Source of the DNA: Clostridiales bacterium
Lineage (GTDB): Bacteria; Bacillota; Clostridia; Peptostreptococcales; Anaerovoracaceae
Length of the DNA: 32,635 nt
Direction: 5' to 3'
NCBI GenBank assembly: GCA_012838265.1
Contig: DUPP01000179.1
Span: forward strand, 1 to 32,635
Shown here: positions 15,173-30,633 of the stretch, piece after piece
Position numbering within the stretch: the stretch's first letter is position 1
Layout of the letters: each line of letters starts with the position of its first letter
Program-made: the position numbers and the translations under genes
The notes under the pieces: model-generated
What the model was told of the DNA's origin: nothing
Databases searched by the model: none
The model's input: the letters and a program-made list of their open reading frames with translations, nothing else

Positions 15173-15832
15173 TCAGCTCCAGTTACAAACCTGATTAATC
15201 CTCTCTGTAGTTCTCATTATAGATAACTCTCTAAGCTTGTACAATTTTTTCTTATTTAATGACCCTTTTAAAAAGTTTAGCGTTTTTTCTTTACCTTTAA
15301 TCTTACCTTCTCTAAATCTTCGAATCAGTTCTTCCGGCTCTAGGTCGATAAATTCTACACTTTCTGCATAGTCAAATATGTAATCTGGTATTCGTTCTTC
15401 AAAAGGAATCTGAAGAGTATCGTTTACAACCTGGCTTAGACTTTCTATTTGATGCGCATTTACAGTTGTGTATACACTTATTCCGGCTTCCAACAATTCT
15501 TCGATATCCTGAAAGCGTTTCTCATGTTTCGAGCCTTCCGCATTCGCATGGGCCATTTCATCGATTAGTATTATCTGCGGCTTGCGGAATAAGGCTCCCT
15601 CTAAATGAAACTCCGAAATTATACCTTTACTGCTGGCAATCAGCTTTAACGGCAAAATCTCAAGCCCTTCCATCAACTCTTTAGTTTCATTACTAGAATG
15701 TGGGGCGATGTATCCAACCAATACATCGACTCCCTTTCTTGATTTTTCATGTGCGTCTTTTAGCATTTTATAGGTTTTTCCAACCCCTGGAGAATACCCA
15801 AAATAAATTTTTAAACTCCCTCTTTTGTTCAT
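15173..15832 (-). CDS. Stand-alone KdpD N-terminal (osmosensitive K+ channel sensor) domain protein
   Basis: LKIYFGYSPGVGKTYKMLKDAH (KdpD Walker A), DVLVGYIAPHS, ILIDEMAHANAEGSKHEKRFQDIEELLEAGISVYTTVNAHQIESLSQVV; ends before the Usp and histidine kinase domains. Confidence 0.9.
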   Translation of the reverse strand: MNKRGSLKIYFGYSPGVGKTYKMLKDAHEKSRKGVDVLVGYIAPHSSNETKELMEGLEILPLKLIASSKGIISEFHLEGALFRKPQIILIDEMAHANAEGSKHEKRFQDIEELLEAGISVYTTVNAHQIESLSQVVNDTLQIPFEERIPDYIFDYAESVEFIDLEPEELIRRFREGKIKGKEKTLNFLKGSLNKKKLYKLRELSIMRTTERINQVCNWS

Positions 15833-16018
15833 TTTATTACCCCCTGATTTCCAGTTAAAACAATTGATTGTAATTTTGCCCTTATACAAAGGCTACTGAT
15901 ATCAAATCCATCCATACTCCCAATTTCCTTAGCTTATTCATTACTTAATTACAGCATATCGTAAACTTGAGATATTTTGCGTCATAATTTTACACAATAT
16001 TTCGACAATAAAACACAT

Positions 16019-27458: not shown

Positions 27459-27487
27459 ATTATATCTTTATATTCGAGTTTTTTCAA
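27459..27487 (-). promoter_or_regulatory. Sigma-A promoter for the M23 gene (TTGAAA-N17-TATAAT)
   Basis: Minus strand TTGAAA at 27487-27482 overlaps the dnaD-like gene's TGA stop; TATAAT at 27464-27459. Confidence 0.65.
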
Positions 27488-28752
27488 TCCGTTTTTTGAA
27501 TGTTTTTAAGCTTCTCGGCAAAGCAGCTGCAGCGTCCCCCCGTATCAAGTGTGCCTGTGTCCTTGCAAAGGGGGCAATCATACGTTAAATCCATATAATC
27601 AATTGTAAAGTTATTTTCTGTCATTAAAAAGGCTTTTTCTGCATTCAGGCGATCTATTCTTGCCTTCATAGCTTTGATTTTACTCTTTACATCGTTTGTA
27701 CCAGAAAGCATTATCTTTGAAATCTGCAGTCCGATATTACGAGTTTCTTCTTCAATTTCTCTCACTCTGGGTATATTTTTATATACCTCTGCACGCCTTT
27801 CTTCAGCTTCTGCCTCATGCCTTGCTCTAAGTTCTTCATAATATCTCATTACTCTTGCTATGTATCCAGAACCTGTTTCACCTTTATTGGATGAAGTCCT
27901 TTCATTCCCGCTACTCCACGCTTTTAATACGGTATTGATATAATTAATATTGGGATTGGATATGCCTGTGGTCTTCTTACAAGCTTCAAGCACCCTGTCA
28001 ATGGTGAATCCCATCTGGTCAAACCATGTGTCCATTATTCTTTTTTCTTCTTCTGTAGCATTACGCAGTAAACCTAATGCCCGAAGGACTCTTTTATACA
28101 AATAGTGGCGATTATCTATTTCTTCAAGATAGTCTTCTATTTGCTCTGCTGTTTTAAGCCCTTGATTTGCCCACTCCTTAACGACCGCTGCTACATACTT
28201 ATGGTTGCTGTGACCTTTTTTCTTAACACAGTAGGAATAAGCATACAATATCATTTCAGGCGTTGCATTATAATCCGTAATCCAAGAAAGGATCTCCATT
28301 GGCTCATTTCCTTCGAATAGTCTTCCTGTTATCTGCTCGATTCTACTGTACATTTTCTTAATGTCTTTATTGTCCATAAGACCCTTTAATCGATCCGGTA
28401 CCTTTGAATCCTGTTTACGGGCCTTTGACTTCTTTCCGTATACAAGACCCTTTAGATTGATGAATTCCACCTGATAGTGGAATTTATCGCCTGGTTTTAT
28501 AAAATGTTTTCGGATCACTCCCAACTTTTCCCAATAGGTCCATGCCTTTAAAACGTCTTCATCCTCCATGCCCAAGTGTTTCGCAATAGTCTCGTTCGTC
28601 ATATTCTTGTCAAAATCAGCATACATCAGAGCAAATAAATATACTTTAACATAATTGCCTGGAGCTTGGGGCATATATTCATTTATAAAAATATTTTCAA
28701 CATGAGTGTCTCTCAGATAAAAATCTTTGTTAATCTCCTTTTTGAAATTCAT
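27484..28752 (-). CDS. DnaD-domain replication protein with a C-terminal DnaC-loader-like Zn-binding tail
   Basis: N-terminal winged helix and DnaD regions (EILSWITDYNATPEMILYAYSYCVKKKGHSNHKYVAAVVKEWANQGLKT; YINTVLKAWSSG), then YYEELRARHEAEAEERRAEVYKNIPRVREIEEE ... YDCPLCKDTGTLDTGGRCSCF. Confidence 0.85.
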   Translation of the reverse strand: MNFKKEINKDFYLRDTHVENIFINEYMPQAPGNYVKVYLFALMYADFDKNMTNETIAKHLGMEDEDVLKAWTYWEKLGVIRKHFIKPGDKFHYQVEFINLKGLVYGKKSKARKQDSKVPDRLKGLMDNKDIKKMYSRIEQITGRLFEGNEPMEILSWITDYNATPEMILYAYSYCVKKKGHSNHKYVAAVVKEWANQGLKTAEQIEDYLEEIDNRHYLYKRVLRALGLLRNATEEEKRIMDTWFDQMGFTIDRVLEACKKTTGISNPNINYINTVLKAWSSGNERTSSNKGETGSGYIARVMRYYEELRARHEAEAEERRAEVYKNIPRVREIEEETRNIGLQISKIMLSGTNDVKSKIKAMKARIDRLNAEKAFLMTENNFTIDYMDLTYDCPLCKDTGTLDTGGRCSCFAEKLKNIQKTD

Positions 28753-28792: not shown

Positions 28793-30130
28793 TTATTTCT
28801 CACTAATATTACTTTTGTCTACAAACCTGGTGTACTTTCCTAGCCAGGTAAGCTCAATGGTTCCAGTTGGACCACTACGATGTTTTGCGATGTTTACCTC
28901 ACATATGTTAGGTTTTTCGGTAGTATCAGGAAAATAGTACTCATCCCTATACAGGAACATAACTATGTCTGCATCCTGTTCGATAGAGCCTGATTCTCTA
29001 AGGTCCGAAAGTATCGGTCGATGGTCAGCTCTCTGCTCTGGCGCACGAGAAAGCTGGGACAGCACAAGTACCGGGCAATCCATTTCCCTGGCCAACTGCT
29101 TTAAATACCTGGAAATTGCCGTAATTTCTTGCTGTCTATTTTCAGTTTTCCCTTCAAAGGTCATTAACTGAAGATAATCTATGACGACCAGATCCAGTCC
29201 CTTCTCCGCCTTAAGCCTTCTGCATTTATTTTTAATCTCCATGGGAGTGATACCTGGCGTATCATCTATGTAAATACTAGTTTTGGAAAGGGTATCCAAT
29301 GCGATATGAATCTGATCCCAATCCTGACGTTCCAAATTCCCTGTTTTCAATTTTTGTATTTCAATTCTGGATTCCATACTCAGCATTCTTTGGCCTAACT
29401 GCTCCTGCGACATTTCCAGACTAAATATCAAAACCTTTGCTTTTCCTTTTATCGCGGCCTGCTGTGCTATATTTAAGGCAAATGCAGTTTTTCCCATACT
29501 GGGTCTTGCTGCAAGGACGATTAGATCTGATCTTTGCATTCCCGAAGTTTTTGCATCTAAATCGATAAAGCCAGTGGTCAAGCCGGTGATATTGCCCTCC
29601 AGCTTTGACATTTCATCAATCATTGTGATATTGTTCCATAAAACATCCTTAATTGCCTGATAATCTTTGTTCTGTCTAGACTGAGCAATTTCAAAAATTA
29701 CTCTTTCAGAGTAATCTAAAACCTCGGCAGATTCCATCTTCTCTTGATATGCATTTTCAATAATATTTGACGATGCGTTAATCAACTTACGGAGCACTGC
29801 TTTTTCAGCAATGATTTTCGCATATCCTCCTACGTTCGAAGTAGAAGGGACGACTGACGACAGCAATGCAACATATGCCCTACCTCCTACCATTTCTAAG
29901 GTTTTCCGTTTTTTTAGTTCTTCTGAAACAGTAAGAATATCTATAGGTTGACTTTTTCTATATAGTTCTATTATGCAGGAGTAAATCTCCTTATGTATTT
30001 CACTGTAGAAATCTTCTGGCTTGAGAATTTCCAGCACTTCATAAAGTGCTTCCTTGTCAAGAAGGATTGAACCCAACACAGATTTCTCAGCATCATCGTT
30101 ATGTGGGGGTATTCTTTCATATTGGCTCAT
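28793..30130 (-). CDS. dnaB: Replicative DNA helicase (DnaB family; DnaC in Bacillus)
   Basis: RIPPHNDDAEKSVLGSILLD, LIVLAARPSMGKTAFALNIA, LVVIDYLQLM, SDLRESGSIEQDADIVMFLYRDEYY. Start at ATG 30130 after AGAGGT. Confidence 0.98.
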   Translation of the reverse strand: MSQYERIPPHNDDAEKSVLGSILLDKEALYEVLEILKPEDFYSEIHKEIYSCIIELYRKSQPIDILTVSEELKKRKTLEMVGGRAYVALLSSVVPSTSNVGGYAKIIAEKAVLRKLINASSNIIENAYQEKMESAEVLDYSERVIFEIAQSRQNKDYQAIKDVLWNNITMIDEMSKLEGNITGLTTGFIDLDAKTSGMQRSDLIVLAARPSMGKTAFALNIAQQAAIKGKAKVLIFSLEMSQEQLGQRMLSMESRIEIQKLKTGNLERQDWDQIHIALDTLSKTSIYIDDTPGITPMEIKNKCRRLKAEKGLDLVVIDYLQLMTFEGKTENRQQEITAISRYLKQLAREMDCPVLVLSQLSRAPEQRADHRPILSDLRESGSIEQDADIVMFLYRDEYYFPDTTEKPNICEVNIAKHRSGPTGTIELTWLGKYTRFVDKSNISEK

Positions 30131-30186
30131 AATATACCTCTTTGAAGCGACGTTCATAGGTGCTGCAACTGAGAAAATACGTAAAC

Positions 30187-30633
30187 TTACTGTCCTGATA
30201 CTGTTACTTTAATCTTTGCTGTAACCTCCGGGTATATCTTTACATCCAGTTTGTACTCGCCCATTTGTTTTATCGGGCTTTCTAATACGATTTTTCTTTT
30301 ATCTATGCTTATTTTATGCTGATCCATTAGAGCATCTGCGATATCCTTGGAAGTGATAGAACCAAACAATCGTCCTCCTTCTCCAGACTTTGTGACGATT
30401 TCAACATTAAGCTTAGCCATTTTTTCGGCCAATTGTTTTGCCTCAGCAAGTTCTTTTTGACGCTGTTCCTCCTGAATCGCTTTTTGTTTTTCTAAAATCT
30501 TAAGATTAGCGTCGGTCGCTTCTTTTGCAAATCCACGAGGAATCAACATATTTCTGGCATATCCGTCACTTACCTTGACGACTTCTCCTGCCTTTCCGAC
30601 TCCCTTAACGTCTTTCTCTAATATTACAATCAT
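30187..30633 (-). CDS. rplI: 50S ribosomal protein L9
   Basis: [40 protein letters not shown]. Confidence 0.98.

Follow-up and report, generated by a model that had tools for sequence, protein, structure and literature searches.

Fusion of DnaD to the N-terminal domain of a DnaC-type helicase loader, without the AAA+ domain, in the family Anaerovoracaceae

The fused gene and its neighbourhood

The window, i.e. the whole analyzed stretch of 32,635 nucleotides from an Anaerovoracaceae genome, carries on the minus strand a gene (27484..28752) for a 422-aa protein in which DnaD (DDBH1-DDBH2-DDBH2) is joined to the N-terminal domain of a DnaC-type helicase loader. The DnaD part comprises residues 1 to about 282. 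DDBH1 winged-helix membership was met by the alignment of residues 1-285 with unfused DnaD proteins, and the AlphaFold2 model of DDBH1 contains helices and a two-strand wing. Membership of the DnaB_2 (DDBH2) family was met by two stretches matching Pfam PF07261 (E 5e-28); the first domain, residues 137-208 (28129..28344, minus strand), is also recognized by TIGR01446, and the second covers about residues 209-282. Foldseek comparison of the DnaD part with DnaD (2zc2) gave only weak E-values.

A variable junction follows (residues 283-294; 27871..27906, minus strand; pLDDT below 50), which occupies the place of the conserved C-terminal tail of unfused DnaD proteins. The remaining residues, 295-422 (27487..27870, minus strand), form the loader N-terminal domain or head, as supported by NF005304, AlphaFold2 and dN/dS. 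Residues 296-415 match positions 4-122 of 330 in NCBIfam NF005304 (E 1.3e-29, 103 bits; far above chance), i.e. PRK06835, the DnaC-type ATP-binding protein (clostridial loader, 330 aa). The profile match ends at 122/330, where the linker to the AAA+ domain would start, and the ORF end falls before the linker and Walker A region. Near its C-terminus the head contains four invariant cysteines in a C-x2-C-x11-C-x-C arrangement (C393, C396, C408 and C410; 27523..27576, minus strand), a presumed zinc site. There was no match to DciA (PF05258) in the fused protein.

The sequence-only reading had described a DnaD protein fused to the N-terminal part of a loader lacking the AAA+ domain, with the loader part at 27484-27858 (residues 299-422 plus the stop codon of the ORF), and this held according to the profile matches and the Cys motif; absence of loader similarity, which would have refuted it, is not the case given the NF005304 match. 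With the clostridial DnaC/DnaI-type loader (NF005304/PRK06835; CD3654 in C. difficile) the fusion shares the N-terminal ~120 residues including the Cys4 motif and the gene place next to DnaD in the dnaB region, but it lacks the whole AAA+ domain and is covalently joined to DnaD. With the DnaD/B. subtilis DnaB family (DDBH1-DDBH2-DDBH2; CD3653 in C. difficile) it shares the winged-helix-like N-terminal part and the two DnaB_2 repeats, but carries the loader head in place of the conserved C-terminal docking tail.

The gene for the replicative helicase and presumed partner, dnaB (28793..30157, minus strand; Pfam DnaB_C E 3e-112), lies 40 bp upstream of the fused gene on the same strand, and the run also contains, upstream of dnaB, the gene rplI for ribosomal protein bL9 (30187..30633, minus strand), identified by sight. 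The gene after the fused gene encodes a LysM/G5/M23 peptidase and is thus, as had been read, an unrelated peptidase. The helicase gene was found just upstream of the fusion and on the same strand, as in the window, in most genomes of the family looked at. Elsewhere in the window, a 238-aa protein (15173-15889, minus strand) consists of a KdpD sensor domain alone (PF02702, residues 22-231, E 9e-76), without the histidine kinase part.

Distribution of the fusion and absence of a full-length loader

The fusion was detected in the family of the window, Anaerovoracaceae (hereafter f1), and in two smaller families, f9 of the same order and f44, which belongs to a different order within the class. 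Among 37 f1 genomes, 35 matched the fusion; both parts were present in one ORF in 33 of the 37, and two were cut at contig ends. The ORF end is identical in isolates and metagenome-assembled genomes (MAGs) across f1 genera; a named carrier is Anaerovorax sp. IOR16. Thus, the comparison of the locus across relatives, which had been proposed as a check, showed that the fused form is standard throughout the family. It is the sole form in f9 (3/3 genomes), where the helicase gene of the two genomes checked has the opposite orientation, like in unfused relatives, and fused ORFs are present in f44.

Each of the 44 unfused loci that were read in detail encodes DnaD and a loader with Walker A in two neighbouring ORFs. 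The sequence-only reading had stated that DnaD and a DnaC-like ATPase are usually separate adjacent genes in other Clostridia, and this held for the unfused loci and is in line with PMC5204125. Nor is the loader-derived tail a normal part of most DnaD proteins outside the lineage, which would have refuted the reading: DnaD proteins from the rest of the order and class are without this tail and stand beside a full loader. No further fusions were found in a phylum sample of 120 genomes, and no earlier description of such a DnaD-loader-head fusion was found in the literature searched.

The gene tree groups f1 with f9 (SH-aLRT 88) and places f44 elsewhere. Likewise, the DnaB tree unites f1 and f9 in a clade with full support and a long stem (0.45), and f44 is separate on another long stem. 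The fusion may have arisen in two lineages, f1+f9 and f44; a single origin was not rejected by either the gene tree (AU p 0.29) or the DnaB tree (p 0.20). The long-stem DnaB clade of f1+f9 is compatible with a possible co-adaptation of the helicase. No in-frame fusion of DnaD with a full loader was found as an intermediate; open frames of ~680 aa that seemed candidates turned out, in both loci checked, to be two ORFs split by a stop. A phage origin was not supported, as a search of viral contigs yielded no relative, and unannotated faecal 'phage' matches to the fusion look like misbinned bacterial contigs.

The proposed search for a full DnaC/DnaI AAA+ loader yielded none in the genome of the window, and no full-length loader was present in any of the 213 genomes of the three fused families (199 f1, 11 f44 and 3 f9; for f1, no genome had a match to the full loader model above its cut-off). 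As a positive control, the same search recovered a full loader in 94/95 genomes of the rest of the order. Walker A occurs in none of the fused ORFs and is present in every neighbouring loader ORF of the 44 unfused loci. The other loader-model matches in the genome of the window were an IS21 IstB, DnaA and weak Walker-A-only matches. This genome is a fragmented MAG (92% complete assembly); a full loader elsewhere in it was ruled out within this assembly and in complete relatives. DciA (PF05258) was found in 0/61 well-completed genomes of the family, with positive controls, which rules out that DciA has taken over loading. These absences and the family-wide occurrence go beyond what had been read from the window.

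A split loader, in which the AAA+ partner acts in trans (the AAA+ domain of DnaA, an IS21- or phage-type DnaC or a diverged unknown ATPase), could be considered at this point. In its favour, IstB or mobile-element DnaC-like proteins occur in some genomes, and DnaA was always present in the genomes checked. However, in three genomes assembled in a single contig (G126, G119, G223) the sole match to the loader model at E below 1e-6, besides the fused head, was DnaA. The accessory loaders of some f1 members, of IstB or phage/ICE type, are moreover scattered and look mobile, although only one of them was read in context, where the adjoining replication gene is of plasmid/ICE type. We therefore regard a split loader as very unlikely; it remains possible that a rapidly diverged AAA+ helper of another family escaped detection. 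The accessory loader read in context (L047; G019:C1 about 56801) is a mobile-element-type DnaC of 287 aa encoded directly behind a 284-aa replication-initiator-like ORF. Among the DnaC-resembling AAA+ proteins of genome G000 is an IS21-type IstB beside an integrase-like ORF (G000:C98; L002 1480-2286, minus strand).

Constraint on the head and loss of the DnaD C-terminal motif

Within the genus, where dS was computable, dN/dS of the loader-head tail was 0.02-0.13, and the tail is thus under purifying selection; for the junction codons 285-300 the values were 0.15-0.49 where computable. The four cysteines were invariant in 22 full-length fusions, in a set of 31 fused and unfused heads and in the f44 fusions. 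These data bear on the possibility that the fused gene is a deletion scar or an assembly artefact, i.e. that the AAA+ domain was lost recently or the contig broken and the tail is decaying. This could be suspected from the fragmented state of the MAG and from frame changes that break the fused gene in G223. Against it stand the ORF end shared by isolates and MAGs across genera, the low dN/dS and the invariant cysteines, so that a scar or artefact is all but excluded. Of the two explanations offered by the sequence-only reading, the deletion scar is thus rejected; a frameshift restoring an AAA+ domain, which would have undermined the reading as a whole, was not found either. In G223 (L139; G223:C1 about 1528681) the fused gene is broken into parts in different frames, possibly by indel errors of long reads; it is intact in G103 and G196 of the same genus.

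AlphaFold2 modelled the head with high confidence (mean pLDDT 95.4, pTM 0.78); three long helices are joined in the model by a Cys4 knuckle and a short terminal helix. No relative of the head in the PDB was detected by sequence profile or fold, and a structural match to the zinc domain of B. subtilis DnaI was not recovered. Because a solved homologue is missing, the helicase-binding role is inferred from the place of the head in the loader. The other explanation, an ATPase-free helicase-binding adaptor, is supported by the family-wide fusion, the purifying selection and the invariant cysteines, with helicase binding itself remaining an inference without biochemical data.

Unfused clostridial DnaD proteins end in a tail resembling [FY]H[NL]-x(7-13)-Y-x-x-x-EL[DE]. 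This motif was present in 42 of 44 unfused proteins (C-termini from L068-L097 and L106-L119) and in none of 63 fused proteins, which represent about 53 distinct genomes; its chance rate in shuffled C-termini was 0.0014. The DnaD motif was thus lost together with the AAA+ domain, a further point not contained in the sequence-only reading. In B. subtilis, the corresponding C-terminal tail of DnaB, a protein related to DnaD, binds the AAA+ part of DnaI (PMC13326638), and therefore the dock and the tail that docks on it seem to have disappeared jointly, with a covalent link taking their place. The simplest reading, which is an inference, is that the AAA+ domain connected the helicase-facing head to the DnaD-type protein, and that the fusion made both bridge and tail dispensable. 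The paired loss suggests that, in Clostridia, DnaD docks on the AAA+ domain through this tail, and the motif of unfused DnaD may be considered a candidate peptide for docking on the AAA+ domain of the loader.

A putative chromosomal loader without ATPase

Chromosome replication becomes committed when the helicase is loaded, and there is a long-standing debate on what ATP hydrolysis by the loader is for (ring opening, restraint, release or proofreading). We consider it likely that the fusion is a chromosomal helicase loader without ATPase, in which a DnaD oligomer presents several heads; loading activity has not been shown and there is no biochemical evidence. In this proposal, a clostridial DnaC-type loader would have lost its AAA+ domain, and the remaining head would have been joined to the DnaD C-terminus, replacing the docking tail. 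DnaA would recruit the DnaD part to oriC and PriA would recruit it to stalled forks, and the DnaD part would oligomerize. In B. subtilis, DnaA recruits DnaD, and both DnaD and DnaB are tetrameric (PMC13326638); a DnaD oligomer would therefore display several heads at the origin with no need for an AAA+ ring of the loader. The heads are predicted to bind DnaB and either keep the ring open or hold subunits around single-stranded DNA. Release may then occur via ssDNA binding, the ATPase of DnaB itself and primase, and not via ATP hydrolysis by the loader.

ATPase-free loading is plausible because the helicase-binding domain of E. coli DnaC alone loads DnaB at about half the wild-type efficiency (PMC8213410). 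Like the fused head, this isolated laboratory construct is an ATPase-free N-terminal part of a DnaC-class loader; it is, however, an artificial truncation of 75 residues without fusion to an origin protein, and homology of the two heads has not been shown. In C. difficile, the best-studied of the relatives with separate DnaD and loader genes, helicase binding persists in Walker-A mutants of the loader, and mutant loaders seem capable of helicase loading or activation but do not restrain the helicase (PMC5204125). DciA represents a likewise ATP-independent class of chromosomal loaders, but is an unrelated KH-fold protein and absent from the fused-family genomes. Phage lambda P likewise opens the helicase ring without being an AAA+ protein of the DnaC type (PMC6391071), but its sequence is unrelated and it acts at the phage origin only.

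Alternatively, the fusion could be a recruiter only, with the head tethering DnaB to DnaD at the origin and the helicase opening or assembling unaided on ssDNA (the ring-maker route, with primase as activator), so that strictly speaking there would be no loader. Assembly of the C. difficile helicase is ring-maker-like, depends on ATP and requires primase (PMC5204125), and the long DnaB stem of f1+f9 together with the Asp that most of their members carry at position W+8 of the DnaB docking helix could be signs of a helicase variant that loads itself. On the other hand, f44 helicases do not have this Asp, and the isolated E. coli DnaC binding domain raises loading (PMC8213410), so tethering and loading need not be separable. 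This alternative seems unlikely to us. As to position W+8 itself (L163-L168, L193-L208), Asp is found in most f1 and all f9 helicases, Gly, Val, Ala, Ile, Glu or other residues in unfused relatives and Ser or Gly in f44. As a mark of AAA+ loss this Asp was discarded, since with f44 lacking it the residue is at best lineage-specific.

The preferred reading, an ATPase-free loader, can be taken one step further: chromosomes would be replicable with a loader derived from DnaC/DnaI in which the AAA+ domain and the docking tail are replaced by covalent fusion, giving a further loader class beside AAA+ DnaC/I and DciA. We lean towards this bolder view, with modest confidence. The fusion could also explain one kind of genome that would be scored without dnaC/I and dciA; genomes scored with neither were left open in PMC5109545. 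Altogether, the data reveal that the ATPase of the helicase loader was lost throughout a clade and that the helicase-facing head was kept as part of DnaD, a larger change than had been read from the window, and with loading activity itself not shown. With the ATPase deleted family-wide and the head kept, these bacteria provide a natural experiment which makes the question of the loader motor testable.
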